Shown here: positions 15,283 to 52,742 of the stretch, one piece after another
Position numbering within the stretch: the first letter of the stretch is position 1
How the letters are laid out: the number at the start of each line of letters is the position of its first letter
Source: Prevotella sp.
GTDB lineage: Bacteria; Bacteroidota; Bacteroidia; Bacteroidales; Bacteroidaceae
Length of the DNA: 54,159 nucleotides
Assembly (NCBI GenBank): GCA_017430675.1
Contig: JAFRMM010000133.1
Coordinates: forward strand, 1-54,159
Reading direction: 5' to 3'
Notes under the pieces: generated by a model
The model's input: the letters and a program-made list of their open reading frames with translations, nothing else
Database searches by the model: none
What the model was told of the DNA's origin: nothing
Program-made: the position numbers and the translations under genes

Positions 15283-15879
15283 ATGAAAGTGAGATTCATC
15301 GACAAATTAGCCGTTAGTTTCGTGGCGCTCGTAGCGCTGACGAGTGTAGGAGAGGTGAAGGCACAGACGTTCGCCGTGAAGAACAACCTCCTGTACGATG
15401 TCACGCTGACGCCCAACCTCGGGTTCGACCTCAAGGTCGATTCCCTGTGGACCGTCGGTGCCGTCGTGGGCCTGAACGCCTGGGACATCAACAAGGACAC
15501 CAACAAGAAGTGGCGCCATGTGCTCGTCGAGCCGAACTTCCGCCGCTGGCTCAACGGTGAGGCGTTCCATAAGCGCTACATCGAGGGCGACCTGATCTAC
15601 AGCCATTACAACGTGGGCAACACCCGCATCCCCTTCGGGCTCTACGGAGCCGTGAAGGACCGCCGTCTGCAGGGCGACCTCCTCGCCCTCGGCGGGAAGT
15701 ACGGCTACTCGTGGATCATGGCGCGCCACTGGCGCATCGAGGCCGAGGCGGGCATCGCCGTCGGCTACGCCTGGTTCAAGGAGTACGAGTGTCCCGCCTG
15801 TGGCATGCAACTCGGCGAGGGCGACCGCATCTTCCTCCTGCCCCAACTCGGCGTCAACATCGTGTATATCATCAACTGA
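15283..15879 (+). CDS. DUF3575 family exported protein of a fimbrial locus
   Basis: A 198-residue exported protein. The signal peptide is MKVRFIDKLAVSFVALVALT...VKAQ, followed by FAVKNNLLYDVTLTPNLGFD, characteristic of the DUF3575 family. Alternating hydrophobic strands and the aromatic C-terminus (LGVNIVYIIN) suggest a small outer-membrane beta barrel. In Bacteroidales this family commonly opens Mfa/Fim fimbrial gene clusters, as here; its function is not established. I chose the ATG at 15283 because the longer open frame from 15151 lies upstream of the -7 box at 15260. The next gene starts 24 bases downstream. Confidence 0.82.
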   Translation: MKVRFIDKLAVSFVALVALTSVGEVKAQTFAVKNNLLYDVTLTPNLGFDLKVDSLWTVGAVVGLNAWDINKDTNKKWRHVLVEPNFRRWLNGEAFHKRYIEGDLIYSHYNVGNTRIPFGLYGAVKDRRLQGDLLALGGKYGYSWIMARHWRIEAEAGIAVGYAWFKEYECPACGMQLGEGDRIFLLPQLGVNIVYIIN

Positions 15880-15903
15880 AAAAAAGTATAAACAAATAAA
15901 AAA

Positions 15904-17814
15904 ATGAAGCGTATGAAGAAAAATTCAATCTATGCCTTGATGAGTGCGATAGCACTTGCTGGCGCAGTGGGATTCTGCGGTTGCTCCTCGTCGAGCGACG
16001 AGATCATTGACAATCCGGACTACAATCCGGAGACGAACTCGGTGAAGACCTCCATCACTCTCAGTATCAACCCTGCCAATACCAGTGCAGGCACCCGTCA
16101 GACGAATGCCATCGTGCAGAATGCTGCTTCGGACTTCAGGGGAATAACGAGTATGTACCTGGTGCCGGCAACTGCAGCGATTACCGGTGCCACCTCCATG
16201 ACGAAGAAACTCAACTTAGGTGACTTCGCAACTACTGATTACACCGCAGATTCAAAAAACTATAAGACTTATGCTAATCAGGAAGTGGCAGTAGGCGTTA
16301 GTCAATTTCTCTTCCTGGGCAAGGCTTCAGGTGCAGCAACATCTGCTTCTACACCTGCCCAAAAGTTGGCAAGCGGTTATACGACTAACACATTTGCTGA
16401 TGACCTCACAGCGACATCTACTGTGGCAGATCTGAAAGTAACAGCAGGTACCATCCTTAGTAGCACAGATGCCTGGGATACTCAGACCAATGCCTTGGCT
16501 GATTATCTTTTTTCTGTTGCCAACGCCGATGGATGGGCAGGAAATGAAAATGCCAGCCTGAATAACATGCATACCCTTTTCTGCCGCACCAGTCTGACGG
16601 CCGGTTCTGCCAATGCAGTCCTGCTGACCCTCCAGAACCTGTACCGGAAAATCGACGGACTTGATACAACAACCGTCAACAATATCCGTAATGCCATCTT
16701 AGCAGAGGGAAAGGCACGAGTACAATCAGGTACTGGAAGTAACGCAGTATTGGAGTGGCAAAGTTCTTGCACATTCAAGGACTTCCCCGCATCATTAGGC
16801 CTGCCTGATGGCGCTGCTCATTACAAGTATGTGGCTGCAGTTGGTGAAACTCCTGCGAAATTCGAATATACTACTGCAACTGGTACAGAGAATACACTGA
16901 CAACGGCCGCCACGGCTTACGTCTATCCCAATGAACTCTATTATCTGACAAATACTCCTATCAAGACCACTGCGAACAAGACGGTGACGTGGCCTACTAC
17001 GACCACAGCCTGGGCAACCGCTGGCAACTGGCCAGAGACCACTTGGACAGGTACCGCTGTCGCCGGTGACACGAAGAACATTGCATTGCAGTATAATATC
17101 CAGTACGGTTCTGCCCGTCTGGCCACACAGGTGAAATGTGGAGAAGCAAAACTTTACGATAATGCCATCGCATTAGATACAGATCATCCAACCAAAAATA
17201 GGGAAATTACTGTGGCGGCTAACTCCTTCAAGTTGACGGGCGTGATCGTGGGTGGTCAGCCGCAACAGGTAGGCTGGAACTTCCTGCCCACTACAACAAC
17301 AGGTTTCGGAAAAGCCCTGTATGACCGTGTGGATGAAATTGACGTGTCATCGACGACGGACTATTCGACTCCCAACTATACCTTGGTCTTCGATAATTAT
17401 AAATCGGATACAGAGGCCCCGAATGTAAGTATCTGTTTGGAATTCCTGAATAATTCGGGTCAGGATTTCTATGGAAAAGATGGTCTGATCCTGAACGGAC
17501 AGAAGTTCTATCTGGTAGGCTCATTGGATATGTCGGGTAAAGACAGTCCCGTTACAACAACCGACGACGCTACTTTGAAAGCCTATGTCCCCAGCAGGGC
17601 ACTTCGCGCCTTCATCCAGGACTATACCACTACCGCACAGTTTCTCATTACGGCTGGTACTGAAACAGGAACGGGAGAGGCTGGCGTCGGATCTCTGGGC
17701 AAGGCCCTTTCCACTGTGCCCGACCTCCGCACATCGGAACAGGAAATCGGACTGTCTGTCGATCTGACCTGGGAGGCGGGTCTCACATTCCAAGATATCG
17801 TACTTGGTCAATAA
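15904..17814 (+). CDS. Fimbrillin-like lipoprotein, probable major subunit (Mfa1/FimA family)
   Basis: A 636-residue lipoprotein precursor with lipobox VGFCGC (Cys25 or Cys27). FimA/Mfa1-type subunits are lipidated, moved to the outer membrane and cut by an Arg-specific protease before polymerising; SAGTR before QTNAIVQ (about residue 60) is a possible cut site. The C-terminal half has the pattern YVYPNELYYLTNTP, LTGVIVGGQ, FYLVGSLDMSG and RAFIQDYTTTAQFLIT, ending in LGLSVDLTWE-like strands; the final strands are used for donor-strand exchange in this family. It is a paralogue of the protein at 19246. It is Ala/Thr-rich and less GC-rich than its neighbours. As the first fimbrillin of the operon it is the best candidate for the shaft subunit. 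Confidence 0.8.
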   Translation: MKRMKKNSIYALMSAIALAGAVGFCGCSSSSDEIIDNPDYNPETNSVKTSITLSINPANTSAGTRQTNAIVQNAASDFRGITSMYLVPATAAITGATSMTKKLNLGDFATTDYTADSKNYKTYANQEVAVGVSQFLFLGKASGAATSASTPAQKLASGYTTNTFADDLTATSTVADLKVTAGTILSSTDAWDTQTNALADYLFSVANADGWAGNENASLNNMHTLFCRTSLTAGSANAVLLTLQNLYRKIDGLDTTTVNNIRNAILAEGKARVQSGTGSNAVLEWQSSCTFKDFPASLGLPDGAAHYKYVAAVGETPAKFEYTTATGTENTLTTAATAYVYPNELYYLTNTPIKTTANKTVTWPTTTTAWATAGNWPETTWTGTAVAGDTKNIALQYNIQYGSARLATQVKCGEAKLYDNAIALDTDHPTKNREITVAANSFKLTGVIVGGQPQQVGWNFLPTTTTGFGKALYDRVDEIDVSSTTDYSTPNYTLVFDNYKSDTEAPNVSICLEFLNNSGQDFYGKDGLILNGQKFYLVGSLDMSGKDSPVTTTDDATLKAYVPSRALRAFIQDYTTTAQFLITAGTETGTGEAGVGSLGKALSTVPDLRTSEQEIGLSVDLTWEAGLTFQDIVLGQ

Positions 17815-17836
17815 TCCACAAGGATAGGAAGTGCTG

Positions 17837-19228
17837 ATGGACAGACACGTGAAGACATATAGCCTGTTGCTCTCCCTGCTGACGGCGGTGAGTTGTTCGG
17901 TGATCGACGAGGACCTGAGCGACTGCGTCGAGCAGGCGAAGATGGACTATGAGTTGCGCCTGGTGACGAACATGACCACCGAGTTGAAGACGCAACTCAC
18001 CACGCAGACCGACCTGAACATCGCCCAGGCGCTGCGTACCCAGTTGAGCGATGTCTTCACCGACTTCGCCCACGACGTCGATCTGTCGTTCTACGACACG
18101 CAGGGCGACTCGGCCCGTCTGCAGCACGACGAGCATATCATGGACGCCAACCAGGCCAGTTATGCCCTGAACCTGCCCATGCGCCAGTATATGCACCTGG
18201 CCACGGCCAACATCATCGACAATGAACTGGTGACGCTGGAGGACGATGACAACTGTCACCGTGCCCGTCTGCAGCAGGTGGCCCGCGACACCATCGACTC
18301 CCACGGTACGGGTGTCTTCACGGCCCGTCAGTCCATGGAGGTGCTGGAGGGCATCGACCAGAACTTCAACGTGCACCTCTATATGGCCAACTGTGCCGCC
18401 ACGCTGGTGATCGACCCCAGGGGACATGGGGATCTGGACAAGATACGTGTCTATAGCACGGGATTTGCCACGGGCTTCAACCTCTGCGACAGCACCTACC
18501 TCTTTGACGGGCGTTCGCCTGTTGTCAGGACAATGCGCTCGGAATCAGACAACGGGAATGAGTTGGCTTTCACGTCGGTGACCTTCCCGTCGAGGGATCC
18601 CGAGGCGGCTGGTACGCGTGCCATCATTGAGACCGAGGAGCCGTTTGTCGCCCAGCCTGGTGAGCCGCTTTGGGAAATCCAGGTCTATGTGCCCCAGTCC
18701 GACGGCAGCATCACAAGAAGCGTGCTCAGCGTCAAGACGCCACTGCGCGCAGGACAGTTTAAGATCATCAAGTGCTGGATCGGGGATGAGGGAGATATTA
18801 ACGTTCCCAACAATCCTGATAATCCTGACAATCCAGATAATCCCGACAATCCCGATAATCCCGATAACCCGGACAACCCGGATAATCCCGATAACCCGGA
18901 TAATCCCGATAATCCCGATAATCCCGATAATCCCGATAACCCGGATAATCCTGATAATCCCGATAATCCGGACAATCCCGATAATCCGGACAATCCCGAC
19001 AACCCGGATAATCCTGATAACCCGGATAATCCAGACAATCCGGATAATCCAGACAATCCAGATAATCCTGATAACCCTGATAACCCGGATAATCCTGATA
19101 ATCCGGACAACCCGGATCCTGGTCCTGGCCCAGAACCTGAACCTGAGCCTGACACCATCAATAGTGATGTGACTGTCTCAGTGACACTCAACTGGAATCC
19201 AGGCGGTGTCTATAATTCGGATCTCTAA
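17837..19228 (+). CDS. FimB/Mfa2-type fimbrial anchor lipoprotein with NPD repeat tail
   Basis: A 463-residue lipoprotein. Its lipobox ends at Cys20 (LLTAVSCSVIDEDLSDC), and CxxIxEDLSDC is the signature of the FimB/Mfa2 family, which anchors fimbriae to the outer membrane and limits their length. The family domain covers residues about 20-320. Residues 326-427 are 34 perfect Asn-Pro-Asp repeats (DNA 18812-19117). A PGPGPEPEPEPD segment and the short end VTLNWNPGGVYNSDL follow. The repeat is probably an extended spacer, which ordinary Mfa2 proteins lack. An in-frame GTG at 17831 is an alternative start. Genes for fimbrillins lie on both sides. Confidence 0.82.
   Translation: MDRHVKTYSLLLSLLTAVSCSVIDEDLSDCVEQAKMDYELRLVTNMTTELKTQLTTQTDLNIAQALRTQLSDVFTDFAHDVDLSFYDTQGDSARLQHDEHIMDANQASYALNLPMRQYMHLATANIIDNELVTLEDDDNCHRARLQQVARDTIDSHGTGVFTARQSMEVLEGIDQNFNVHLYMANCAATLVIDPRGHGDLDKIRVYSTGFATGFNLCDSTYLFDGRSPVVRTMRSESDNGNELAFTSVTFPSRDPEAAGTRAIIETEEPFVAQPGEPLWEIQVYVPQSDGSITRSVLSVKTPLRAGQFKIIKCWIGDEGDINVPNNPDNPDNPDNPDNPDNPDNPDNPDNPDNPDNPDNPDNPDNPDNPDNPDNPDNPDNPDNPDNPDNPDNPDNPDNPDNPDNPDNPDNPDNPDNPDNPDNPDNPDPGPGPEPEPEPDTINSDVTVSVTLNWNPGGVYNSDL
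18812..19117 (+). repeat. 34 tandem 9-bp units encoding Asn-Pro-Asp
   Basis: Units of AAYCCNGAY from 18812 to 19117 (306 bases, 34 copies). Synonymous third positions vary from unit to unit, so the peptide repeat is under selection or is old. The array nevertheless has long near-identical stretches that could change in copy number. Confidence 0.93.
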
Positions 19229-19245
19229 AATAAATAAGTACGCGC

Positions 19246-21057
19246 ATGAGAGACCATACAACGATAGCAATGTCCAAGCGGCATCAGATCATCAGTCTGA
19301 TGCTCCTGCTCGCTGTCGTGCTCTCAGGTTGCGCCGAGAGCGGAACGAATGTCATTGACGAGCCTCCCACACCGCCCGTCGTCGTCGAAGAACCCACAGG
19401 GCACAAGGAGCCCGTCAGTCTGCTCCTCGCCTGTGCACCGGCATCCTCCGCGATGGCCCTGACACGACTGGCAGACGAGGTGGTGCAGTCGGGGACGACT
19501 TACCGTACCATCAGCGACTTCCGCGTTCTTGCCAAGAGGGAAACGGCATCAGGAGCCACCTTCTCAGACAGTTCGGTGGATACTCCCGAGAAGCAGATTG
19601 ACTATACCGAGAGTCCCGATGACTATCAGTATTATCACTCCGGCTACTGCAGCATGGTGGAGGGCGTGAACGCCTGTCTGGTGTATGCCAAGGCAGCCAC
19701 CAGCACCAGCAACGCCACAAAGGCGTATAACGGCAGTCTGAGACCGGACATCAATGCCATCCCGACATGGATATCCTCGACAGACCAGATCCGCTTCACC
19801 CTTGAGCCCATCCTCGACGCCACCGTGGCGCGGGAGACAGGGAATGACCGTGAGGCATGGGAGACAGAGGTATGGGCCCTGGCCAATGCCCTGACGGCCA
19901 TTGTCGATGCCGCCCAGACTGTGATTGGAGATAACACCTACGCCTGGAAGACTTCCACGAACATCATCCTGAAGAATCTCTTCCAGAGGTTCACGAACAA
20001 TGGTGCCGACCTGCCCGGCTCCGCCGCCAGTGTGAAGCAGTGGATGCTCGCCCTGGCTGCAGCGGCAGAGTACTATCATGGGGCAGGCCTTGTTGCCGTG
20101 GGAGATGATGAGAAAGCCATCCTTGCGATCATCAAGACCCAGGCCGAGACGGCGGCTGCGGCTGTCACGGGTACCTATCCGCGCGGTATCAACCTGCCCG
20201 ACGGGGCTGCCGTGGTGAGATGGACGGGCGAGAAGTTCGAGCCGCAGATGCAGACGACGACGCTCGACAACATCAACTCCGTGTCGCGCTTCGTCTATCC
20301 TCCAGCACTCTACTATTTCGTGGATAGCGACATCGTGACCTCTACAGATGTGAGGAATTACAAGGATTATGCTGCTACCCAGAAGTGGAGTGCATTCTTA
20401 ACGACATATTTCCCGGGTACTGAAATAGCCTCCTCTACCCAGACCGCCGCCGTCAAGGATCCCCTGCAGTACGGCGTGGCGCATCTGGCGATGCGGGTGA
20501 AGGCCAGTGCCGATGCATTAGAATATGGTGAGGGCAGCGAGCACACCATAGCCATCAGTGATCTGACACTGACAGGCGTGATCATCGGCGGCCAGCGCCC
20601 TGTGGGCTATGACTTCAAGCCGACGGACGCCTCCACCTACGACATGAGTTTCATCTACGACAGTCAGGTGAACGGCACCTTGACGACTACCTACGCGCCC
20701 TATCACACACTGGCGCTGGAAAGCGTCGAGGGGGAGAACGTGAACATTATCCTGGAGTTCCAGTATGCCGACGGGGAGGGGAAAAAAGAATTCAAGAGCC
20801 TGGACGGCTATGTCTATCCCGGCACGCGCTTCTATCTGGTGGGCGAGGCTGACCTGACAGGTAAGACGACTGAGGCTGACTATACGAAACGGGTGTTTAC
20901 CCAAGACTATACGACCACGGTCGAGATGACGGTGACTTCGCTGGAGAAGGCCTATAACGTGCTGCCCAGCATCCTGTCGAACAATCTGGAGATCGGTGTG
21001 ATGACCACCCCGCAATGGATAGCGGCAGAGCCGCCCGAGACCGTGGTGATGGATTAA
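19246..21057 (+). CDS. Fimbrillin-like lipoprotein, paralogue of the 15904 protein
   Basis: A 603-residue lipoprotein with lipobox VVLSGC (Cys29); Met9 at 19270 is an alternative start. The C-terminal half shares its pattern with the protein at 15904: LPDGAA, RFVYPPALYYFVDSDI, LTGVIIGGQRPVGYDF, RFYLVGEADLTG, RVFTQDYTTTVEMTV and the final LEIGVMTTPQW. This supports one FimA/Mfa1-like fold. The N-terminal halves diverge strongly, as expected for exposed fimbrial surfaces. It may be an alternative or accessory shaft subunit. It lies 17 bases after the Mfa2-type gene and 18 before the next lipoprotein. Confidence 0.78.
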   Translation: MRDHTTIAMSKRHQIISLMLLLAVVLSGCAESGTNVIDEPPTPPVVVEEPTGHKEPVSLLLACAPASSAMALTRLADEVVQSGTTYRTISDFRVLAKRETASGATFSDSSVDTPEKQIDYTESPDDYQYYHSGYCSMVEGVNACLVYAKAATSTSNATKAYNGSLRPDINAIPTWISSTDQIRFTLEPILDATVARETGNDREAWETEVWALANALTAIVDAAQTVIGDNTYAWKTSTNIILKNLFQRFTNNGADLPGSAASVKQWMLALAAAAEYYHGAGLVAVGDDEKAILAIIKTQAETAAAAVTGTYPRGINLPDGAAVVRWTGEKFEPQMQTTTLDNINSVSRFVYPPALYYFVDSDIVTSTDVRNYKDYAATQKWSAFLTTYFPGTEIASSTQTAAVKDPLQYGVAHLAMRVKASADALEYGEGSEHTIAISDLTLTGVIIGGQRPVGYDFKPTDASTYDMSFIYDSQVNGTLTTTYAPYHTLALESVEGENVNIILEFQYADGEGKKEFKSLDGYVYPGTRFYLVGEADLTGKTTEADYTKRVFTQDYTTTVEMTVTSLEKAYNVLPSILSNNLEIGVMTTPQWIAAEPPETVVMD

Positions 21058-21075
21058 AAAGAGACAGAAAAGACA

Positions 21076-22344
21076 ATGAGATACGATCTTGAACATATCG
21101 GACGATGGCTGGGCGCACTGCTGGTGCTGCTCCTCACGGCCTGTTCCTCCTCCTCTTCTTCGGGAGGTGACGATCCTGAGCCGACGGGAAAGCCCGCCCT
21201 CAAGATCTACGTCTTCCCCCCAGACCGTCCCGTCGTGACCCGTGCCGACGTGGGCAACGTGGATGCTTCCGACGCGGAGAACCAGATCCATACCATCTGC
21301 GTGTGGGTGTTCGAGAGAAATGAGACCAACCTCGGCAACAGTCTGCTCGTCGGACATATCAACCTGAACAACTTCTCACTCTCCGAGACGGGCAGCGGTG
21401 AGATCACGCTGGACGTCACCGACGCCTTTGCAGACAAGATCAGCAATGCCCCGACTATTGACTATCGTCCCAAGGTGGATGTCTATGTGGCGGCCAACGT
21501 CACTTCTTCCAACTGCGGTCTGACACTGAACAGTCTGATGAAGAACGGAGAGACAACAGAGAGCGAGGTGGAAGCACTTCTCATCGAAAACCATTTCGGT
21601 CTCACGACGAAGGTGTCGGAGGTGCCGGCCGACGGACTGCCCATGTCGGGCGTGCTGAAGAACCAGCAGATATCGGGCACCTCCCCCGTGTTCCGGGTCG
21701 GTTCGCCGACGACGCTGGCCACCGTCCGACTGGTGCGCGCCGTGTCGAAGGTGAGGTTCGTGTTCTGCCAGTCCACCGCCAATAATGACAACCTCACGAT
21801 CAACAGGATCGACCTGGGCTATGTGCCCGCCGAGGCTGCTGCCGTCCAACTGCCAGCAAAGGAATATCTGTTCCTCGAAGGACCCTATCCCAACTATCTC
21901 AAGAACATCCCCGACGGTGTCAGCCGCGAGGCGGTGACGACCATGGTGTCCAGTGTCAGCGACATCAACAGGAACGACAGCCTGTCGGCGTACAGTTATG
22001 CGGCCCCCATGAGCGGACAGGATTACGAGAACCATATCAACTGGGGTATCAAGCAAGAGAAACTCTCGGAGGTGGGCCGCTTCTACCTGCGGGAGTCCGA
22101 TAACGGCCTTGCCGGAAAGATCTACTATACGATCGTGAAGGAAGGGGAGACCTCGGGAGTGATGAAGGAGAGGGTCTTCAAGACCACGGGCACGACAGGT
22201 GCGACGGACGATAATGACTTCACACGTAACCACACGTGGATCGTGTATGGCTATTTCGTCACGAGCGGTGACCTGGAGGTGAGTGCCGTCGAGATCAAGG
22301 ACTGGGTGACGAGTGACACCCCCGCTGAGGTATATAACTGGTAG
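21076..22344 (+). CDS. Fimbrial minor/tip subunit-like lipoprotein (FimA/Mfa-like)
   Basis: A 422-residue lipoprotein with a hydrophobic leader and lipobox LLTAC (Cys23), followed by a Ser/Gly-rich tether. The motifs VYVAANV, DGLPMSGV, LVRAVSKVRFVF and FTRNHTWIVYGYF with a final Trp-rich strand are typical of FimA/P1-type fimbrial subunits and tip proteins in Bacteroidales. It starts 18 bases after the 19246 gene and is followed after five bases by another fimbrillin, so it is part of the same transcript. The exact position in the fimbria (tip or accessory) is inferred from size and order only. Confidence 0.75.
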   Translation: MRYDLEHIGRWLGALLVLLLTACSSSSSSGGDDPEPTGKPALKIYVFPPDRPVVTRADVGNVDASDAENQIHTICVWVFERNETNLGNSLLVGHINLNNFSLSETGSGEITLDVTDAFADKISNAPTIDYRPKVDVYVAANVTSSNCGLTLNSLMKNGETTESEVEALLIENHFGLTTKVSEVPADGLPMSGVLKNQQISGTSPVFRVGSPTTLATVRLVRAVSKVRFVFCQSTANNDNLTINRIDLGYVPAEAAAVQLPAKEYLFLEGPYPNYLKNIPDGVSREAVTTMVSSVSDINRNDSLSAYSYAAPMSGQDYENHINWGIKQEKLSEVGRFYLRESDNGLAGKIYYTIVKEGETSGVMKERVFKTTGTTGATDDNDFTRNHTWIVYGYFVTSGDLEVSAVEIKDWVTSDTPAEVYNW

Positions 22345-22349
22345 GAAGT

Positions 22350-23462: not shown

Positions 23463-23480
23463 TAAAAAGAAGAGAAGACA

Positions 23481-41681: not shown

Positions 41682-41713
41682 GCGAAAAAGAGTAACAGAC
41701 AACGACAACAGTT

Positions 41714-43288: not shown

Positions 43289-43293
43289 AGGAA

Positions 43294-46200
43294 ATGATTC
43301 GAGATATGAAGAAGGCAATGACACGGATATTCGTCCTGGCCCTGCTGATGATGGTCAGCATGGGGGCATGGGCTGACGTGAAGGTCGTATATGGCGAGGA
43401 CGGCGAGGACACCTGCAAGTTCATGGGCGGCGAGATTACCGCTTCGGTGGGCGAAGAGAAAGGTGGCGAGGTGACCGTCACCCTGACTGTAGCCCCCGAC
43501 GACGGCTACACCATTACCAAAGACGATATCGAAGTCTATGCTACCATGACTCCTAACGGCACCCGTGCCGATGATCCCCAGATCAGCGGCACACTGGAAC
43601 TCAAAGGCGACGACCCCAAGGACCTCTCCGAGAAGCGCGACTACACCGTTACCGTTAAATCCACCTTCGGTGTGTGGGTGAAAGGGGCAAACTTCCAAGA
43701 AAATGGTTCAAAGACTGAACCGACAAGAGTAGACTATTCAGGAGTTTATTATATTGCCAATAACAACACGAATGCATATGTTCAAAATGCGGGTACAAAC
43801 TGGTATATGGTTCCGGCTTCCAACGGGGGCGACGAAAATGTATCAAAAACAGCATGGACATACAACAACGATGCCAACACGCCGCTGGTGACAACCTATC
43901 AGACACAAAAGAATGAGAATTCCATTTGGGTTGTAGAGAAGTCTGGAGACTACTATCATATCATTCACGCCTTAACAGGTATGTATATGGTCTATAACGA
44001 CCCTGTTTACAACAACCGCCGAGCCTTTCACCTTGAAAGCACAGACTCTCCTGGAGAGACCGCCTTGTATGCCATTACTTATCAAAGTAGTTCATCTCCG
44101 TCATATTATAATATTAGATATAATAAACTGACTACGAGCAATCGTTTTCTGAATCCCTCAAAAGGCAACAAAGCATACTATTATGGTCTGACTGCTGACA
44201 ACCAAACTGAAGTCGCTGGTATCATCGGTATTTACAGTGAAGGCGCAGACAAAGGTTCGATGTGGTTTCTTGAGAACGCCCTCCTGTCCGCCCCAACTAT
44301 CACATATAACTATGAAGACAACAACTTCACCATTAGTTACGACAAGATTCCCGTCGGCTTCGATATTCTCTATACCACTGACGGTAGTGACCCAACCATC
44401 AATGGCAGTACTACAAATATAGTTACAACTACTACAGAGCGCAGTACAACAGTAGAGGTGACAGGACGCTACACGGTGAAGGCTGTAGTTGCCCGCTATG
44501 GGTTGGTTTTGACAGAAGTGGCTTCACAACTTGTAGGTATTCCTGACGATCCAACTATTACCCCTCCATCGGATTGTAACAATTTGGTGGAAATGTCAGC
44601 CGGCGGTGCCACGATTTATTATACTCTTGACGGTACTGACCCCGATAATAGCAGTAACCTCTATTCCGAGCCTTTTGCGTTGAATAAGGATGTAACCATT
44701 AAGGCTGTATCTTATAACGGTAATATACGGTCGGCAAACATTATCACTCAAGAATACACCCCTCCTTACACCGTCAAACCAATTATTAGTCGTAATGGTA
44801 TAACGGTCATTATTACCGGCTCTGGCACTATATACTACACTGATGACGGAACCGATCCGGATGCAAACAGCACTCCTTATACAGGTGCTATCACCCTCAG
44901 CGACGGCAGCGGAACGAAAACTTTCAAGGCTGTGGCGAAGGATGACAGCAAAGGATTGTCATGCGTGGCCGAGTTGACCATTAATTTAGGCTATTTCATC
45001 AACGACCTGACGAAGTTGCAGGATATCACGTCGCATCTGAGCGAGCGGTGCATCATCACCAACTACATTGATGCCAGCGATTTTAATGCTAGCATCAGCG
45101 GCTTCACAGGCATTTTCGACGGAGGCTATTATACTATCAGTGGACTCACCGTGCCCTTGTTCGACAATCTCAACGGCGGCACGGTGAAGAACGTCGTTCT
45201 CAGCGAGGTTGATGTAAGTGGCAATGGCGCCATCTGCAACACGGCTGACGGAGCGACAAAAATCTATAACTGCGGTGTGTTGTCTGGAACAGTCAATGGC
45301 ACTGGGAATGTGGGTGGTTTAGTGGGGCAAATCAACAGCGGCTCCAGCGTGCGTGTGGTGAACTGCTATAATTTTGCTGAGGTAAAAGGCGGCACTACTA
45401 TGGCAGGCATTGTGGGCAACAACCTGGGCACTGTTGGCAATGTGCGCATCGCACTTTGCATGATGTATGGAAAAATGGCTGGCACATCGCCCGTCTATGC
45501 CGGCAACCATGTGTCCAACGTTCAGAACTTCACCGAGTATAACTACTGGCGCTACCGTTCGGAGCTGACTTACTCCACCTATAACGACCAGTTGGCCATC
45601 GACAAGGACGAATACCTGACGCGCTTCCCTTTCTACCGCCATATCTTGAACACCCACCGCGAACTGGCGGCCTACTTCCTCTTCGCTGACAATACCACGA
45701 CGGGCAGTGTGGATGACATCACCTCAGAACAGGTGGCAGAGATAGGCCATTGGGTGCTTGACAAGAGCAAAGCCCCTTATCCCATTATAGAAGAATGGAG
45801 GACGAATACGAGGAAAGTAATTGATGCTCCTGCCAGAGCAACGGTGAATGTTGGTGACGACAATCATTCCATCACTTCACTTTCAGTTACCATTAAAATT
45901 GACGGCTCTCAATACACTGCTTCCTTGCCCATTACCGGTATGGACGAAGCCAACTACGACTACACGTGGGGAAAGGTGGTGCTACCCTTCGCCAACGAAT
46001 TCAAGATAAATACAGACTATAGCAAAATATGCACGGGATGGAAGATTACCAGCATCACAGGCGGCAAAGGAGCAACATTTGAGAACTACAACTTCTCTGA
46101 CCGCAACTGCACGGATAAAGACCTCTACGAAACCTCTGGATACATCTATGCACAGGGTGGCAACTACATCGTGCCCTACGGTGTGACAGCCATTACCATT

Positions 46201-48114
46201 GAGGCTAACTTCGCTACTGCCTACTATCTGAGTGACCCGGCTTACGACATAGGGTTGAATGCCAACTATGGTGGGGCGGCCAACCTTGGCGGCACAGTGC
46301 CTACTACCTACTATCAAGACCGCCCCGTAGCCATCAATCTGGAGACGTTGCTTACTAACATGCCAACGGCAGACAATCCTCACGAACAGGCCATTGTGCT
46401 GGTGGGCAACTATCACTTTAACGACGGCGATTTGGGTTCTGGCAATTATGAAAAGGCATTCACGCTGATGAGCATTGATGCCGACAACAACCAGGAGCCA
46501 GACTACGGCTTCTATGCGTACAACAGTGCTGACCGACCGGGAGCCCCTTCCATGCGTTTCGACTTCTTGCCTGTCATTCCCGTAGGTATGGCTGCTCACG
46601 TGAACGGTAGTACAGGTTTCCCGGGCGTACCTATCTGGAAGGTGCGTGGCTGGTTTGAGATGACAGAGACCTGTGTTTTCTACACCAGCCAGTGCGAAAT
46701 AGATTCGGGTAACTTTAATAGTACTGATAACGGTAGGGGCAATAACCGATGGATTGTCAACAGTGGCTATTTCGTACAGATTGTACGTTCAAGAGACAAA
46801 GACTGTAACAGGGTTAGTTATATACACATGGGGGGCAACGTCTTTGTGGAAGAATTCTATCCAGGCTCTCACTCCGATAAGGATAAGACAACGACCATTG
46901 TTCCTGTCAATGTTACTGGTGGAGAAATCAAGGAATGCTTTATGACTGGTTATAGTTCACAAAACAAAGTCAAGGCTCAGGGTGATGACATTTACTTCTG
47001 GTGTGCCGGCGGCAAAATTCATAAGTTCCTTGGGGCTTATGTGGAAACGCCGACACCCAAGACTAGTGGGGCGAAAGTGAACATGACAGCGAAGATTGAC
47101 CATGCCATTATAGGTCGTTACTTCGGTGGCGGTACTTCGGCAAAGGCTTCTATTGGCGGAAACATTACTACTACCATCAACAATAGCAAGGTTGATTTCT
47201 TCTGCGGAGGTCCTGAATTCAGTAGCGCTACTGAAGCCCCGGTGGTTGTGACGAATGCTACTAATACCATCTTTGGCGAATACTACGGAGCAGGCTATGG
47301 AGGAACTTCTATCACCTACGCACGAGTTGATCAACAAAACAGTGTAGATATATCAAATGATAAAACTTACCCAATATCGTTTGGCAACGTTTATAAACGT
47401 TTGAATAAGACAAGCGATGGTATCGGTACGTGCTATAAGTTCGAATACATCTACCACTCATATAGTCGCGTGGCCGTGGCACGTTCCTACACAGGCTATG
47501 CCCAGTTCTCGCTGGCTACCACAGGCAACGTGACCAACAACCTGACTGGGTGTCAAGTCAGTAAACTTACCGCCGACCAAACGTTATCAGGAGAGGGGAC
47601 TACGGGCGATTTTTATGGTGCGGGCTGTCAGGGTAAGGTCAGCGGAACGGTGAACTCAACACTGACAAGTTGCGAGATCGATGGTAGTGCCTACGGCGGC
47701 GGTTTCAAGGCGGAGTCGAACGAAGTGAAGGTATATACCTCTGATGGGCCAACCTATTCTGTTTATAAAAAGGAGATGGCCCTCTTCACTGACTTCGGGG
47801 AATTTCCAACACCACAGACTTTCACGTGGATAGCAGGTACTGGTGACTCCAATGACTCTGCCAAGACACTGTGCACAGGTATGACCCAAGATGCAATGAA
47901 CCAACTCGGCAACGTCACAGGTGCCATCTCAATCACTATTGATGGCGGTACAGTGGCAGAGGATGTCTATGGTGGTGGCAATGAGAGTAAATCACTCGAC
48001 AATACGACGGTCACGCTTAAAGGTGATCTTATAGTAGGTCGTAATGTCTTCGGTGGAGGTAACGAGGCCGATGTAGTTGGCAGCGCGACGGTGAACATTA
48101 TAGATGAAGAATAG
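43294..48114 (+). CDS. Giant secreted protein: N-module, trefoil-like and chitobiase-C-like domains, GLUG, YGGGN end
   Basis: A 1606-residue exported protein (signal ends at MGAWA; Met5 at 43306 is an alternative start). Residues about 28-135 are the N-module. Residues about 145-330 look like a beta-trefoil-like domain (uncertain). Three chitobiase/hexosaminidase C-terminal-type repeats follow (about 330-570), each with an IYYTxDGTDPD signature (ILYTTDGSDP, IYYTLDGTDPD, IYYTDDGTDPD). A GLUG-like region (GTVKNVVLSEVDVSG, NVGGLVGQ) lies at about 600-730. From there the protein is colinear with the one at 37905 and ends in YGGGN units (DVYGGGNESKS, NVFGGGNEADVVGSATV), without a sorting tail. It appears to be a duplicate of the 37905 gene with inserted carbohydrate-binding-like domains. 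Confidence 0.78.
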   Translation: MIRDMKKAMTRIFVLALLMMVSMGAWADVKVVYGEDGEDTCKFMGGEITASVGEEKGGEVTVTLTVAPDDGYTITKDDIEVYATMTPNGTRADDPQISGTLELKGDDPKDLSEKRDYTVTVKSTFGVWVKGANFQENGSKTEPTRVDYSGVYYIANNNTNAYVQNAGTNWYMVPASNGGDENVSKTAWTYNNDANTPLVTTYQTQKNENSIWVVEKSGDYYHIIHALTGMYMVYNDPVYNNRRAFHLESTDSPGETALYAITYQSSSSPSYYNIRYNKLTTSNRFLNPSKGNKAYYYGLTADNQTEVAGIIGIYSEGADKGSMWFLENALLSAPTITYNYEDNNFTISYDKIPVGFDILYTTDGSDPTINGSTTNIVTTTTERSTTVEVTGRYTVKAVVARYGLVLTEVASQLVGIPDDPTITPPSDCNNLVEMSAGGATIYYTLDGTDPDNSSNLYSEPFALNKDVTIKAVSYNGNIRSANIITQEYTPPYTVKPIISRNGITVIITGSGTIYYTDDGTDPDANSTPYTGAITLSDGSGTKTFKAVAKDDSKGLSCVAELTINLGYFINDLTKLQDITSHLSERCIITNYIDASDFNASISGFTGIFDGGYYTISGLTVPLFDNLNGGTVKNVVLSEVDVSGNGAICNTADGATKIYNCGVLSGTVNGTGNVGGLVGQINSGSSVRVVNCYNFAEVKGGTTMAGIVGNNLGTVGNVRIALCMMYGKMAGTSPVYAGNHVSNVQNFTEYNYWRYRSELTYSTYNDQLAIDKDEYLTRFPFYRHILNTHRELAAYFLFADNTTTGSVDDITSEQVAEIGHWVLDKSKAPYPIIEEWRTNTRKVIDAPARATVNVGDDNHSITSLSVTIKIDGSQYTASLPITGMDEANYDYTWGKVVLPFANEFKINTDYSKICTGWKITSITGGKGATFENYNFSDRNCTDKDLYETSGYIYAQGGNYIVPYGVTAITIEANFATAYYLSDPAYDIGLNANYGGAANLGGTVPTTYYQDRPVAINLETLLTNMPTADNPHEQAIVLVGNYHFNDGDLGSGNYEKAFTLMSIDADNNQEPDYGFYAYNSADRPGAPSMRFDFLPVIPVGMAAHVNGSTGFPGVPIWKVRGWFEMTETCVFYTSQCEIDSGNFNSTDNGRGNNRWIVNSGYFVQIVRSRDKDCNRVSYIHMGGNVFVEEFYPGSHSDKDKTTTIVPVNVTGGEIKECFMTGYSSQNKVKAQGDDIYFWCAGGKIHKFLGAYVETPTPKTSGAKVNMTAKIDHAIIGRYFGGGTSAKASIGGNITTTINNSKVDFFCGGPEFSSATEAPVVVTNATNTIFGEYYGAGYGGTSITYARVDQQNSVDISNDKTYPISFGNVYKRLNKTSDGIGTCYKFEYIYHSYSRVAVARSYTGYAQFSLATTGNVTNNLTGCQVSKLTADQTLSGEGTTGDFYGAGCQGKVSGTVNSTLTSCEIDGSAYGGGFKAESNEVKVYTSDGPTYSVYKKEMALFTDFGEFPTPQTFTWIAGTGDSNDSAKTLCTGMTQDAMNQLGNVTGAISITIDGGTVAEDVYGGGNESKSLDNTTVTLKGDLIVGRNVFGGGNEADVVGSATVNIIDEE
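43318..43693 (+). repeat. N-module DNA, copy 2 of a near-identical pair
   Basis: Direct repeat of 37918-38300; see that entry. Recombination between the copies would remove about 5.4 kb, including the AAA-ATPase gene and most of the 37905 gene, and fuse the two giant genes in frame. Confidence 0.88.
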
Positions 48115-48150
48115 AAGAGGTAAGATAGAAGGAATGTAAAAGAACAAGAT

Positions 48151-51100
48151 ATGACAAAAGATAGGAACTACACTTTTATGAAACCCCTGCGGGCTGTGCT
48201 CGTGGTTTCCTTGGCAATGCTGACGACCACAACAGCCATGGCACAGGGCGTTGTCGTCAATGGCAATGTCTATGGCGGCGGCAATAAGGCCGACGTGAAA
48301 GTCAACACTGAGGTAAACATCAGTGCTGGTACAGTCCGAGGCAATGTCTTCGGAGGAGGCAAGGGTACAGCAGACTCGTTCGAGTGTGAGAAAGCCATGG
48401 TGGGAGATGAGGAGGATCCTGGTGTAGATGAATCCGGTAACCTGAAAGATGGCGGAACGAAAGTCACCATCAGCAACGGCACGGTGAATGGTACAGTCTA
48501 TGGCGGCGGTGAGGTAGGCCGCGTGGAAAGGAACACGGAGGTGACGATAGGTGACGAGTCCGGGACAGGCACACCCGTTATCAAAGGCAACGTGTTCGGT
48601 GGAGGCGCAGGTGTCATGACACATGGCTATTCAGCACTGGTTCGTGGCAAGGCTACCGTCACCGTTCAGGGTAAAGCCAAGGTGGAAAAAAGCGTCTATG
48701 GCGGCGGCGAGATCGCCTCGGTGGGCCGATATAAAGTTAAGAAGGCTCCAAACGTTCCCGAGGACGCACCAGACTGGGTGCCTGTAGGAATGCCGTATTC
48801 CTTGAAAAATGAAAACAATGGAAGTGGCAATTGTACTGTCAAAATCAAGGGCCAAGCCGAAATCGGTCCCAACGGCTTGAAGATGAAGGGTACGACATCG
48901 GGAAAGCCCGATGACACAGGACATGTGTTTGGCGCCGGCAAGGGCGTGCTGCCGGGCATTTATTCTTATGCCGATACTGCTCACATGCCCAAACGTATGA
49001 TGCGCCGTGATTCCTATAAACCCACTACTACCACACCTCTACCCACTTACTGGATGTCTGTTTATGAAGACGATGACACATATATATGGGAATATTTTGA
49101 TACTGAGGCCAAATATCTGACGTTTATCGAGACGATGGCCTTGGCCACCCAGGGCAAGGTGACCATTGGCAATGATGCTGCTACGGACAAGCCGTTTGTC
49201 AAGGGCTCCGTCTATGGTGGCAGCGAGAACGGTCATGTACAGCATGATACTTATGTGGAGATAAAGAGTGGTCAGATTGGCTGCGGTAAGGATGCGACGG
49301 ACCCATACGGTGACAATGTGTGGTCTTCCACTACTCCGCCAGCAACTGATCTGGCATGTGCCAGTTGGGACTATGATTTTGCAGATTATACAACGGGTGG
49401 TGCACCTTACGACCCGTTCGCTACAGATGCTGGTACATACGACTACAGTGAGTATTCGGACATTCCAGAAACAGTATTAGAAAGGCTGGCATCAACGGAA
49501 GGAGGAAAGCCTGAAGGTAAGGACGGTCATACCTACTTCGGCAACGTGTTTGGCGGCGGTAGCGGTGTCGTCCCCTATGCGCCAGGCAAATGGCATCGTG
49601 CGGCAGGTTCTGTAGGTGGCAATACCCAGGTGGATATTACCGGCGGACATATCCTGACCTGTGTCTATGGCGGCAACGAGCAGACCGATGTGGGTAAGTA
49701 CACTGAGGATGCGGATAGTGCGCTGACGATACCTGTAGAAAATACGGGAAAATGTACGATCAACATGTCGGGCGGTACCGTGGGTGTGCCACGTACCAAG
49801 GAAATGATTCTGCGAAATCCAGCCAATGGACATATCTATGGAGCGGGCATGGGTGACAAGCGCATCTTCTTTAATACGTGGACAAATGTCAGTGAGACTT
49901 CTGTGAACGTGACGGGTGGAACGGTCTATGGTTCTGTCTATGGCGGCGGTCAGGATGGTCACGTGATAGGTGATGCTGTAACGACCATTCGTCAGGATTC
50001 TGATGACAAACCGACCGTCATCGGCTGTGACGGCACATCCGGTTACGACGGTAACGTATTCGGAGGAGGCCAGGGCTCTATTACGGCATTGACGGCTGGT
50101 GTCGTAGGCGGTAATGTGGATCTTAAGATCCAGGGCGGTACGATGAATGGTTCCGTCTATGGCGGAGGAAGAATCGCCTCCGTGGGAACCTATTTCGCCA
50201 TGGCAACTAATCGAAAGTATGGCTGGATGCAAGATGGTGATGATCATGGCTGTATTTCCCTTGACCTGACTGGCGGCACCATCGGGCAGAATGTCTATGG
50301 CGGTTGCATGGGTACGACGGATAATGCGGAACTGAGAGACAGTTTGGGTAAGTCGAAGAATGTCATTTTGCACTTGAACAAGGGTGTGAAGGATAATGAA
50401 AAAGGCTGCGTCGTGAAGAAGGATATCTTTGGCTGTAACAATGTGTTCGGTTCGCCAGTGGGCAGTGACACTGTACATATCCATGGTACTCAGAATGCCA
50501 GTAAATCGGAAATTACTGACAAGGTAAAAGCCAACAGCACCACCGATTTCTCCCAATACGATGTGCGTGCCGTCTATGGCGGTGGTAACCTGGCAGCCTA
50601 CACGCCGACGGATGCGGATTCCGATGATGAAACGAAGCAAGCCAATGCACATACCACCGTCATCATTGACGGCTGTGGCAGAACAAGTATCGGGCAGGTG
50701 TATGGTGGCGGTAATGCTGCCTCGACACCGGCTACCGAGGTGACAATCAATGGTACGTATGAGATTGGTGAACTGTTTGGTGGCGGTAATGGATATGACA
50801 AACTACCTGACGGTTCGGACAACCCAGGTGCTAACGTCGGATATACGGCCTATGGTACTGAATATGATCCTCCCGCCAGTTCGAAGGAGGAGCGAACAAC
50901 GAAGTTCGGCTATGGTTCCGGTAAGGCTGCAGTCAATATCTATGGTGGACTGGTACATATTGTTTTTGGTGGTTCAAACACCAAGGGTAATGTGCGTCAG
51001 TCGGCTGTGACCATGCTTGAAGACATGAGTACGTGTGATTTCTGCGTGGATGAGGCCTACGGTGGCGGCAAGAGTGCGCCGATGGATGCTGAGGCTGTAC

Positions 51101-51978
51101 TGCACATGGCCTGTATCCCAGGTCTGAGTGTTGCCTATGGTGGGGCAGAGGCTGCCGATATCATGGGCAATGTGACGCTGAACATCACCAACGGTACCTT
51201 CGACCGTGTGTTCGGCGGCAACAACATGAGCGGCACCATCAACGGCTCCATCACGGTGAACATTGAGGAGAAGGGTTGTAGGCCTGTTATCATCGGACAA
51301 CTCTATGGTGGTGGCAACCAGGCCGGTTACTCCATCTATGGTTATAAGAAGGATAGCCAAACCGGTAAACAGGTACCCATAGAAAGTGCCAATGATCCGG
51401 AGGCACAGTCTGTGGCGTATGATGATCCTGTTGTGAACATCAAGTCGTTTACCAGCATCGGTGATGTATATGGTGGAGGTCTTGGTGAAACTGCTGTGAT
51501 GGTGGGTAGCCCGACGGTGAATATCAATGTGGTTGAAGGTAAATTTGCATCGGACAATCAATCTGTGATAGGCGATGAGAAGGCTGTCTTGAATGGTGTC
51601 CTTGTCAATAAAGAAGAGTCTGGATATCCTACAGGTAGTTATCCTGTTCCGTCTCATGCGAGCGGAAAGATCGGTGTCATTAACAACGTATTTGGTGGTG
51701 GCAATGCCGCCAAGGTTATCGGTAGTACAAACGTCAAGATTGGTACAGAGGATGTTTATGTGGTGAAGACAGTTGAAGTGGGTGCCAGTGTGGCAGGTCT
51801 CTATACGCTTAACGGAACAGCATATACTGCTGCTGCTACAGATAACGCTGAAGAAGGTGTTACCTACTATGAGAAGAAAGAGGTGGGCGCCGACATCCGC
51901 GGCAATGTCTATGGCGGTGGTAACCAGGCCGAGGTCACCGGCGACACCAATGTCAATGTCGGTAGGAAAGTAGAGTAG
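48151..51978 (+). CDS. Giant secreted YGGGN-repeat protein without other domains
   Basis: A 1275-residue exported protein; the signal peptide is MKPLRAVLVVSLAMLTTTTAMAQ, starting at Met10 (48178), so 48178 is an alternative start. From the mature N-terminus, VVVNGNVYGGGNKADVKV, to the last residues, NVYGGGNQAEVTGDTNVNV, it consists of about 26 YGGGN-type units (NVFGGGKG, TVYGGGEVGRV, SVYGGGEIASV, QVYGGGNAAST, DVYGGGLGETA and so on) spaced about 25-80 residues apart with variable inserts. It is thus the purest example of the repeat family in the window. It has no N-module and no sorting tail. A beta-solenoid surface or extracellular fibre is my inference. Confidence 0.78.
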   Translation: MTKDRNYTFMKPLRAVLVVSLAMLTTTTAMAQGVVVNGNVYGGGNKADVKVNTEVNISAGTVRGNVFGGGKGTADSFECEKAMVGDEEDPGVDESGNLKDGGTKVTISNGTVNGTVYGGGEVGRVERNTEVTIGDESGTGTPVIKGNVFGGGAGVMTHGYSALVRGKATVTVQGKAKVEKSVYGGGEIASVGRYKVKKAPNVPEDAPDWVPVGMPYSLKNENNGSGNCTVKIKGQAEIGPNGLKMKGTTSGKPDDTGHVFGAGKGVLPGIYSYADTAHMPKRMMRRDSYKPTTTTPLPTYWMSVYEDDDTYIWEYFDTEAKYLTFIETMALATQGKVTIGNDAATDKPFVKGSVYGGSENGHVQHDTYVEIKSGQIGCGKDATDPYGDNVWSSTTPPATDLACASWDYDFADYTTGGAPYDPFATDAGTYDYSEYSDIPETVLERLASTEGGKPEGKDGHTYFGNVFGGGSGVVPYAPGKWHRAAGSVGGNTQVDITGGHILTCVYGGNEQTDVGKYTEDADSALTIPVENTGKCTINMSGGTVGVPRTKEMILRNPANGHIYGAGMGDKRIFFNTWTNVSETSVNVTGGTVYGSVYGGGQDGHVIGDAVTTIRQDSDDKPTVIGCDGTSGYDGNVFGGGQGSITALTAGVVGGNVDLKIQGGTMNGSVYGGGRIASVGTYFAMATNRKYGWMQDGDDHGCISLDLTGGTIGQNVYGGCMGTTDNAELRDSLGKSKNVILHLNKGVKDNEKGCVVKKDIFGCNNVFGSPVGSDTVHIHGTQNASKSEITDKVKANSTTDFSQYDVRAVYGGGNLAAYTPTDADSDDETKQANAHTTVIIDGCGRTSIGQVYGGGNAASTPATEVTINGTYEIGELFGGGNGYDKLPDGSDNPGANVGYTAYGTEYDPPASSKEERTTKFGYGSGKAAVNIYGGLVHIVFGGSNTKGNVRQSAVTMLEDMSTCDFCVDEAYGGGKSAPMDAEAVLHMACIPGLSVAYGGAEAADIMGNVTLNITNGTFDRVFGGNNMSGTINGSITVNIEEKGCRPVIIGQLYGGGNQAGYSIYGYKKDSQTGKQVPIESANDPEAQSVAYDDPVVNIKSFTSIGDVYGGGLGETAVMVGSPTVNINVVEGKFASDNQSVIGDEKAVLNGVLVNKEESGYPTGSYPVPSHASGKIGVINNVFGGGNAAKVIGSTNVKIGTEDVYVVKTVEVGASVAGLYTLNGTAYTAAATDNAEEGVTYYEKKEVGADIRGNVYGGGNQAEVTGDTNVNVGRKVE

Positions 51979-51980
51979 GG

Positions 51981-52742
51981 ATGATCATGGACAAGATAGG
52001 AACATACGAATTCATGGCGGAGCCGTTCTATTGTGACTTTCAGGGACGGCTGTTCATGGGACACTTGGGCAACCACATGCTGAACGCGGCGGACTTCCAC
52101 TCGACGGCGCGCGGCTTCGGCATGCAGTATCTGATGACGATCAAACGGTCGTGGGTGCTCTCACGCCTGGCCATCGAGATGGACGAGATGCCGAGGATGT
52201 ATTCCAAGTTCAACGTGGAGACGTGGGTGGAGAGTGCCATGCGCTACTTCACCTCGCGTAACTTCCGTGTGGTGGATGGCGACGGCAGGGTGTATGGCTA
52301 TGGCCGTTCCATCTGGGCGATGATCGACACGGAGAGCCGTCAGCCGACAGACATCTATTCCATCGACAACGGGGCCATCAACAACTGGATCGTGAAGGAC
52401 AAGGACTGTCCCATTGACAAGGGCGGACGGGTGAAGATGGGCGAGGAGACTGAACTGTGCCGCACCATCGACACCTATTATAACGACGTGGATATCAACG
52501 GACACATCAATTCCGTGAAATACATTGAGCACGTGCTCGACCTCTGGGATCTCGACTGGTACAGGGCGCATCAGATCAAGCGCTTCGAGATCGCCTACGT
52601 GGCAGAGGCCCATGCGGGGGACAGGCTGAGTTTCTATCAGGAACAGACAGGCGACCTCGAATTCTGCGTCCGCATCATGAAGACCGACCCTGACACGGGC
52701 GAGGATACCGAGTCGTGCCGCAGCAAAGTGACCTTTACTTAA
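51981..52742 (+). CDS. Acyl-[acyl-carrier-protein] thioesterase
   Basis: A 253-residue cytoplasmic double hot-dog enzyme that releases fatty acids from acyl carrier protein. The signature YNDVDINGHINSVKYIEHVLD (about 173-193) holds the active-site Asn and His. The N-terminal hot-dog half contains GMQYLMT and RMYSKFNVETWVES, and the length is normal. It starts two bases after the giant gene's stop codon, though an ATG six bases later (51987) is also possible. This close spacing suggests translational coupling to the giant-protein operon, but the metabolic link is not obvious and it may be a neighbour by chance. Confidence 0.9.
   Translation: MIMDKIGTYEFMAEPFYCDFQGRLFMGHLGNHMLNAADFHSTARGFGMQYLMTIKRSWVLSRLAIEMDEMPRMYSKFNVETWVESAMRYFTSRNFRVVDGDGRVYGYGRSIWAMIDTESRQPTDIYSIDNGAINNWIVKDKDCPIDKGGRVKMGEETELCRTIDTYYNDVDINGHINSVKYIEHVLDLWDLDWYRAHQIKRFEIAYVAEAHAGDRLSFYQEQTGDLEFCVRIMKTDPDTGEDTESCRSKVTFT

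Follow-up and report, generated by a model that had tools for sequence, protein, structure and literature searches.

A fimbrial gene cluster linked to giant solenoid proteins in Prevotella and its relatives

Why would genes for giant repeat proteins stand in the same uninterrupted run as the genes of a fimbria? A contig of Prevotella sp. (GenBank assembly GCA_017430675.1, contig JAFRMM010000133.1; the stretch of 54,159 nucleotides analyzed is hereafter called the window) raises this question at positions 15283-52742 of its plus strand, where 14 open reading frames (ORFs; g1 to g14) follow one another with successive gaps of 24, 16, 17, 18, 5, 18, 35, 21, 31, 32, 5, 36, and 2 bases. The same order recurs in relatives, and the run is therefore not a chance arrangement. 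We consider it probable, at roughly two chances in three, that one operon here codes for both a type V (Fim/Mfa) fimbria and giant partners at the cell surface. The fimbrial genes (F1 to F6) and the first giant (G1), the latter with a predicted type IX secretion system (T9SS) tail, are located as follows:

15260..15267, plus strand: TANNTTTG promoter box upstream of the operon
15283..15879, plus strand: F1 (g1), DUF3575 protein (PF12099, E = 9.4e-46; barrel match below the cut-off)
15904..17814, plus strand: F2 (g2), large fimbrillin-like lipoprotein, candidate shaft subunit (lipobox Cys, Arg site, homology to F4)
17831..19228, plus strand: F3 (g3), Mfa2/FimB-type anchor lipoprotein with an NPD repeat linker (PF08842 in relatives)
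19246..21057, plus strand: F4 (g4), large fimbrillin-like lipoprotein, F2 paralogue (hhalign, lipobox Cys)
21076..22344, plus strand: F5 (g5), FimA/Mfa1-family pilin (NF038041; PF06321 in relatives; PDB 3r4r)
22350..23462, plus strand: F6 (g6), fimbrillin adjoining the giant, candidate tip adapter
23481..35354, plus strand: G1 (g7), 3957-aa giant with signal peptide (by eye), predicted beta-solenoid, further domains, and predicted T9SS tail
23568..29150, plus strand: G1 YGGGN repeat region, about residues 30-1890 (YGGG-type motif count)
23592..23660, plus strand: G1 N-terminal terminal coil
35097..35351, plus strand: predicted G1 T9SS type A sorting tail (TIGR04183)

A first-pass annotation of the run had listed 14 plus-strand genes with gaps of 2-36 bases, and a recount of the ORFs and measurement of the gaps gave the same result. 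Its description of the first six as a DUF3575 protein and five fimbrial lipoproteins also holds, with g1 matching DUF3575 at the E value given above and g2 to g6 showing the lipobox cysteine in every aligned relative. The statement that most distal genes encode secreted proteins is borne out for five of the eight (g7, g8, g10, g12, and g13, with signal peptides judged by eye), whereas g9 and g11 show no such peptide and g14 encodes an acyl-ACP thioesterase. Searches against Pfam and NCBIfam matched g1 (DUF3575), g5 (weak, Mfa1-like), g8 (weak, LRR_5), g9 (YhcG/DUF1016), g10 (a Peptidase_M26_N stretch), g11 (AAA-ATPase_like and PDDEXK_9), g12 (Fn3_assoc and CHB_HEX_C_1), and g14 (acyl-ACP thioesterase); g2, g4, g6, g7, and g13 matched no Pfam or NCBIfam family at E 0.01, and the sole NCBIfam match of g3 was repeat-driven and far below the cut-off.

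Linkage of giant and fimbrial genes and the leading promoter box

GTDB genomes were scanned with an alignment built from the giants only (A1), and the best 80 loci of 294 relatives were kept with flanks of up to 10 kb, so that distant giants are under-sampled. F6 immediately precedes the giant on the same strand in 76 of the 79 loci where the start of the giant can be read (median gap of 15 nt), the exceptions being L062, L063, and L037. Among the 80 upstream flanks, F1 is found in 44, F2 in 57, F3 in 53, F4 in 43, F5 in 53, and F6 in 76, and the full F1-F5 set is not present in every 10-kb flank. In a second sample of 301 genomes of the family, the G1 core domain occurs in 44 genomes at 47 places, 43 of which have F6 upstream on the same contig and strand within 16 kb; three of the other four begin inside the giant or are fragments, and at the last (G149) the contig extends about 1.3 kb further upstream, in a genome without an F6 match. 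By calculation, these misses all fall at contig ends or close to them. F6 is present in 42 of the 44 genomes with G1 versus 6 of the 257 without it. Conserved linkage of the giants with F6 is found in both samples, and the pattern that the first-pass annotation had named as speaking against its reading, giants that are never near fimbrial genes, is not seen, with one clear exception (L037) among the 79 readable loci.

A protein search with G1 scored 1790 candidates and returned 1617 relatives at E 0.001; the matches listed include, apart from the protein of the window itself, 119 with 52-64% identity over 95-100% of the 3957 residues, which points to a conserved full-length family. Where relatives bear names, these are hypothetical proteins from Xylanibacter brevis (a relative of 3818 aa with 53% identity), Prevotella sp., and a Bacteroidaceae bacterium, and the giants of the 80-locus set are as little as 36% identical in their best segment. 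About 60 of the 80 loci carry ruminant-host or RUG/RGIG/RUI labels in their record titles; the fimbria and giant operon is found in many Prevotella relatives, largely ruminant-derived. Two giant loci can stand on one contig, as L044 and L051 do, about 32 kb apart (CACXXT010000010.1), and one family genome (G239) has two G1 places on a single contig.

The Bacteroidetes promoter box at 15260-15267 is the TANNTTTG copy that leads into the run on the plus strand. The window contains 20 copies of this sequence on its two strands (13.85 expected by chance; a count of 20 is reached in 6 of 100 shuffles), with two further plus-strand copies in intergenic DNA 500-650 bases upstream (14633 and 14756) and six plus-strand copies inside the run, all within ORFs and none in the gaps. 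Of the earlier claim that there is a single promoter-like box, what stands is that a box leads the run and that the gaps of the run hold none; the box itself is not unique in the window or in the upstream DNA. Across loci, the stretch from -250 to +20 of the F1 start contains TANNTTTG in 34 of 38 cases versus 7.1 expected from single-base shuffles of the same stretches, and the frequency is near chance ahead of F2-F6 (14/314; 18.5 expected), G1 (4/80; 4.3 expected), and the downstream secreted genes (8/102; 5.1 expected). Several promoters inside the run find no support in these counts; internal promoters, which had been named as evidence against an operon, are at the level of sequence not indicated by the boxes. 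Of 30 foreign genes of at least 200 aa between G1 and the last part of the second giant (G2, described below), 29 share the strand of the operon; among these 29, at least one (1773 aa, in L050) is a piece of G1, and another (208 aa, in L004) may be part of a family protein. Leading box and passenger strand both fit a single operon that would run from F1 through the giants under one leading promoter. The linkage, promoter-box, and G2 co-occurrence counts support the earlier view of the giants as distal members of a conserved fimbrial operon.

The DNA upstream of the run holds a VapE-like/BT4734-like gene on the minus strand (12374-14518) and, between this gene and the operon promoter, a 137-nt inverted repeat at 14567-15043 (89% complementary, 203-nt spacer). 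That the repeat might be an invertible promoter is not supported by the 15260 box, which lies outside it, yet the plus-strand boxes at 14633 and 14756 are within its span. In L040 and L041, proteins whose start resembles, by eye, that of the VapE-like protein are encoded within the giant locus, with 37-57-nt inverted repeats about 2.4 kb apart; no such inverted repeats were found in L057.

The fimbrial proteins and the first giant

F3, F5, and F6 are type V pilus proteins, and F2 and F4 probably are. Alignments comprised 24 of 79 ORFs for F6, 25 of 54 for F3, 23 of 54 for F5, 20 of 46 for F4, and 20 of 91 for F2, and the lipobox (signal peptidase II) cysteine is present in every aligned member (24/24, 25/25, 23/23, 20/20, and 20/20, respectively). 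An arginine follows at a median of 32-38 residues in F5 (23/23), F2 (20/20; median 38), F4 (18/20), and F6 (21/24), and stands in a TR pair in 22, 17, 13, and 15 members, respectively; we take an arginine about 30-40 residues after the cysteine to be the processing site of polymerizing pilins. F3 has Arg-rich columns 21, 47, and 74 residues past the cysteine, with TR in 0, 0, and 2 of 25 members, that is, no TR motif comparable to that of the pilins. By alignment columns, the proteins follow the type V pattern, with the Arg site in F2, F4, F5, and F6 and absent from the anchor F3.

F2 and F4 are homologous (hhalign, E = 4e-105); F2 gave no Pfam match and no convincing match in a PDB profile search, in which F4 had no match and the matches of F3 were chance-like. 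PF08842 is matched by 8 of the 25 F3 sequences at E ≤ 0.1 (lowest E = 7.8e-8). F5 matches NF038041 (E = 3.6e-9, below the cut-off) and PDB 3r4r (E = 3.3e-4), and 17 of its 23 aligned sequences match PF06321 at E ≤ 0.1. A PDB search with F6 by sequence alone reached E 0.12 at best; the F6 model is predicted from structural matches to have the pilin fold of two beta-sandwich domains, and the matched pilins share 6-17% sequence identity with it. Sequence or prediction supports F3 as an anchor-type lipoprotein, F5 and F6 as pilins, and F2 and F4 as paralogous large lipoproteins with a pilin-type processing site. Within F3, positions 18812-19117 hold 34 copies of a 9-base unit coding the NPD repeat, which looks like a length-variable linker; PGPDPG-type repeats occupy this position in L022 and L076, out of 24 aligned relatives. 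Among the 44 loci where its ORF is complete, the DUF3575 product reaches at least 400 aa in 29, versus 198 aa in the window, and the extra C-terminal part of one such protein (L002:969-2540) has TPR matches.

G1 contains 34 YGGG-type motifs versus 1.8 in shuffles, 33 of them within the repeat region, and a structural model of residues 30-800 is a beta-solenoid with a pLDDT of 93.0 and a pTM of 0.93; the N-terminal part is thus confidently modeled as a long beta-solenoid. No Pfam family, including the von Willebrand factor domain, was matched by G1 at E 0.01, no Pfam autotransporter barrel was matched by G1, g10, g12, or g13, and Foldseek with the G1 model gave no PDB match below E 1.9. A viral-type tail fiber finds no support, with no BFVD match below E 0.069. 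At the other end of the protein, 30 of 72 tails of relatives were examined, and 29 of the 30 match TIGR04183 at E ≤ 0.5 (best 3.3e-8) and 14 match PF18962 at the same threshold; the tail also gave a weak full-length profile match to the C-terminal domain (CTD) of RgpB (5hfs, E = 0.4). We predict from these matches that G1 carries a T9SS type A sorting tail. SprA, the marker used for the T9SS translocon, is present in 43 of the 44 family genomes with G1 versus 190 of the 257 without it.

The second giant and the terminal coils

Three distal ORFs map on one larger protein of relatives, g10 and g12 on its body and g13 on its C-terminal half: g10 is 68% identical to the body of the fused protein in L064, and g13 is 50% identical to residues 1869-3080 in L050. 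Judging from these alignments, they are pieces of one second-giant system, G2, which the first-pass annotation had missed along with the T9SS tail of G1. Its chains, their terminal coils, and the small secreted protein g8 are located as follows:

35390..36751, plus strand: g8, 453-aa secreted protein with g10/g12-type N-terminal domain and KGIYIxxGKK tail
37905..41681, plus strand: g10, second-giant body chain (maps on the fused G2 body)
41607..41669, plus strand: g10 C-terminal terminal coil
43294..48114, plus strand: g12, second-giant body chain, Fn3_assoc/CHB_HEX_C_1
48037..48099, plus strand: g12 C-terminal coil, near-canonical, failing the strict pattern
48151..51978, plus strand: g13, second-giant solenoid chain, corresponding to the C-terminal half of fused G2
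48262..48321, plus strand: g13 N-terminal terminal coil
51901..51966, plus strand: g13 C-terminal terminal coil

The body and the C-terminal part form one chain in 32 loci and separate chains in 6, and just one part is visible in 21. Sequence or prediction supports a G2 that is one chain in most relatives showing both halves, with a signal peptide, YGGGN repeats (g13 has 25 YGGG motifs versus 0.9 expected), and no T9SS tail: TIGR04183 was found at E ≤ 0.5 in 0 of 36 G2 tails, where a scan of the same type gave 29 of 30 for G1. Complete G2 chains of 7949 aa (G165), 5352 aa (G145), and 4994 aa (G254) were found; the first, with 120 YGGx motifs, stands directly behind a 4164-aa G1 (L082-L081). 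In the 301-genome sample the G2 body is detected at E 1e-20 in 35 genomes, all of which have G1, and in 0 of the 257 genomes without G1; among its 37 places, 32 follow G1 on the same strand at a distance of up to 25 kb and 5 are on other contigs. A common N-terminal domain of about 135 residues (42% identity) is shared by g8, g10, and g12, with g10 and g12 72% identical over the first 175 residues and 33% over the remaining aligned part. As a T9SS signal the KGIYIxxGKK tail of g8 finds little backing, with TIGR04183 in just 1 of 22 relatives.

The motif Q[IV]x[IV]xGx[VI][YF]GGG[ND] stands directly after the signal peptide in 60 of 74 G1 chains longer than 3000 aa, and the last G2 coil begins within 45 residues of the end in 35 of the 36 complete G2 chains with the motif; three more complete chains without it (L010, 856 aa; L013; L044), outside the 36, look truncated. 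The pattern GxVYGGGNxAxVxGxTxVxV fits 45 of 74 G1 first coils and 28 of 35 G2 last coils, versus 0 of 1709 other coils in G1 and 23 of 901 in G2. This pattern was written after viewing the chain ends, and the comparison was repeated with profiles from the other protein and the YGGG core masked: the profile of G1 first coils ranked the last coil top in 21 of 31 G2 chains (4.2 expected) and among the top three in all 31, and the profile of G2 last coils ranked the first coil top in 55 of 74 G1 chains (3.1 expected) and among the top three in 64. At the end of the body, the pattern is present in 11 of 14 chains that stop there versus 1 of 36 that run on (Fisher 1.1e-7; L022 was set aside as ambiguous, and the equivalent place in fused chains, taken from repeat-region alignments, may be off). 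In the window, g10 and g13 end with the pattern, g13 begins with it, and g12 ends with a near match. What is new here, as far as these motif and profile comparisons indicate, is that the first coil of G1 and the last coil of G2 share a sequence that is rare in internal coils.

Three further genes complete the run and, a point absent from the first-pass annotation, look like passengers outside the conserved set:

36773..37873, plus strand: g9, YhcG/DUF1016 nuclease, passenger (PF06250, E = 4.2e-53)
41714..43288, plus strand: g11, AAA-ATPase_like and PDDEXK_9, passenger (Pfam)
51981..52742, plus strand: g14, acyl-ACP thioesterase, adjacent to the run (Pfam)

The g9 and g11 families occur in just 4 and 6 of 81 loci, including the window, and a new mobile or toxin system finds no support in these counts; g14, not supported as an operon member, was found in 0 of the other 80 loci, the flanks of which may not all reach that far. 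A recurrent 400-540-aa protein with a GxYHIT-like stretch near its start lies between G1 and G2 in eleven loci (L008, L017, L023, L024, L032, L036, L045, L051, L052, L058, and L069). The one "HNYALPGxYHIT" protein tested showed a weak likeness to REP-associated transposases (NCBIfam REP_Tyr_transpos, 22.8 bits versus a cut-off of 80) and matched no transposase in Pfam. RhuM and YhcG genes occupy the same interval in other loci. Upstream of the run, positions 9231-9321 and 9998-10108 are tandem arrays of 9-10-base units that share the core ATCCTAGG; some 0.7 kb separates the two arrays.

Assembly, rival explanations, and known systems

How might these proteins work together? The pilins would be lipidated, cut by an Arg-specific protease, and polymerized by strand exchange, and G1 would cross the outer membrane by the T9SS, as Mfa5 does. 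We infer that G1 is displayed with the fiber as a long adhesive rod, with F6 the likely adapter, and that coils dock, G2 placing its C-terminal coil on the N-terminal coil of G1 and so lengthening the rod. The terminal coil is proposed as a putative joint for end-to-end docking. Carried to its full extent, the proposal is tentative and less probable than not: G1 and G2 would join end to end via the terminal coil, split G2 chains would rejoin likewise, and G2 would be exported solely as a passenger on T9SS-borne G1, giving an adhesive appendage of about 5000-12000 residues on a type V fimbria. With the coil at hand as a joint, evolution would then tolerate breaks in the chain. For the docking step only, a possible if doubtful alternative is that the terminal coil is an end cap that blocks solenoid stacking. 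Solenoid ends need protection, and the same coil at N- and C-termini would also be expected from capping; however, the first element of the G1 model is already a predicted strand (model residues 6-12), with no separate cap in the secondary structure, and the coil found at both sides of split chains (the end of g10 and the start of g13) matches the N-terminus of a different protein.

The giants might instead be independent T9SS surface adhesins that share the operon for co-regulation alone and never touch the fiber, a reading we hold to be unlikely. T9SS-tail proteins usually end attached to surface lipopolysaccharide or released, and G1 bears such a tail of its own; in addition, L037 has G1 without fimbrial genes directly upstream, and F3-type anchors occur in genomes without a G1 match. 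F6, however, tracks G1 almost one to one and stands directly before it in nearly all readable loci, and such a constant neighbor speaks against mere co-regulation, which needs no particular pilin there. Another reading, in which giant genes inserted recently downstream of a fimbrial operon in a single lineage and owe their position to chance, is very improbable: passenger genes do enter the operon, but the linkage spans 76 of 79 loci with giants as divergent as described above.

Several observations weigh against the reading of one operon for a fimbria and giant surface partners. The genomes of the GTDB scan are largely metagenome-assembled and the counts are not phylogenetically independent. 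In L037, the two genes upstream of G1 encode an SDR protein and an amidotransferase. Within the 301-genome sample, F3 is upstream of just 19 of the 47 G1 places and is present without a G1 match in 17 genomes, so that the fimbria may exist without the giant, and 9 of the 44 G1 genomes have no detected G2 body. No route by which G2 could cross the outer membrane is visible, the G1 tail of the window scores below the curated cut-off of TIGR04183 (E = 4.1e-4; 20.3 bits versus 23), F2 and F4 have no solved structural relative, and the window copies of F3 and F5 are not matched by PF08842 and PF06321, respectively.

The nearest parallel is the Mfa system of Porphyromonas gingivalis. One paper (PMC7835359) describes a cluster that encodes lipidated anchor, shaft, and accessory pilins made with N-terminal signal peptides, in which the exceptionally large Mfa5 is the sole Mfa protein with a T9SS signal domain and its export stops when the T9SS is blocked. 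The locus described here likewise combines lipoprotein pilins and one huge member with a predicted T9SS tail. Unlike Mfa5, given there as 1228 aa with von Willebrand factor and Ig-like domains, G1 has about 4000 aa, a predicted N-terminal beta-solenoid, and no Pfam match; unlike the Mfa1 system, the locus has a second giant without a T9SS tail, DUF3575 first in the operon, and F2 and F4 without a solved relative. By analogy the locus would work like the Mfa system, and by the tests made G1 is not a homologue of Mfa5. The suggestion that giants in an Mfa/Fim operon are undescribed needs qualifying, since Mfa5 is, from the paper cited, a precedent for a large T9SS-exported Mfa-operon protein; for this system it holds within the open-license PMC literature, where titles and the starts of abstracts gave no description (subscription papers and preprints were outside the scope). 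From the FimA/Mfa-like pilins of Bacteroides (BF1861, BVU_2522, and kin) the locus differs by low identity (6-17%) and by an F6 tied to the giant. Compared with self-associating or adhesive beta-helices such as antigen 43 and pertactin, G1 has no autotransporter barrel match and a predicted T9SS tail instead; Foldseek gave no PDB match for its model below E 1.9. The G1 tails match TIGR04183 as do T9SS type A cargo with a gingipain-type CTD, whereas the size and repeat architecture of G1, and a partner without a tail, set it apart from such cargo.

Gut and rumen relatives of Prevotella must hold on to particles or mucus, and to our knowledge their adhesins are poorly known. A conserved operon of at least about 30 kb, consisting mostly of two giant solenoids and with G1 in 44 of 301 genomes, points to a major surface structure, for which the named database entries of G1 say just "hypothetical protein." Its likely role would be attachment to plant particles, mucus, or other cells. 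To the Mfa5 logic of lipoprotein pilins with one T9SS giant the locus would add a second case of different structure, and the matched terminal coils give a testable prediction for how a giant without a T9SS tail may be assembled and exported.

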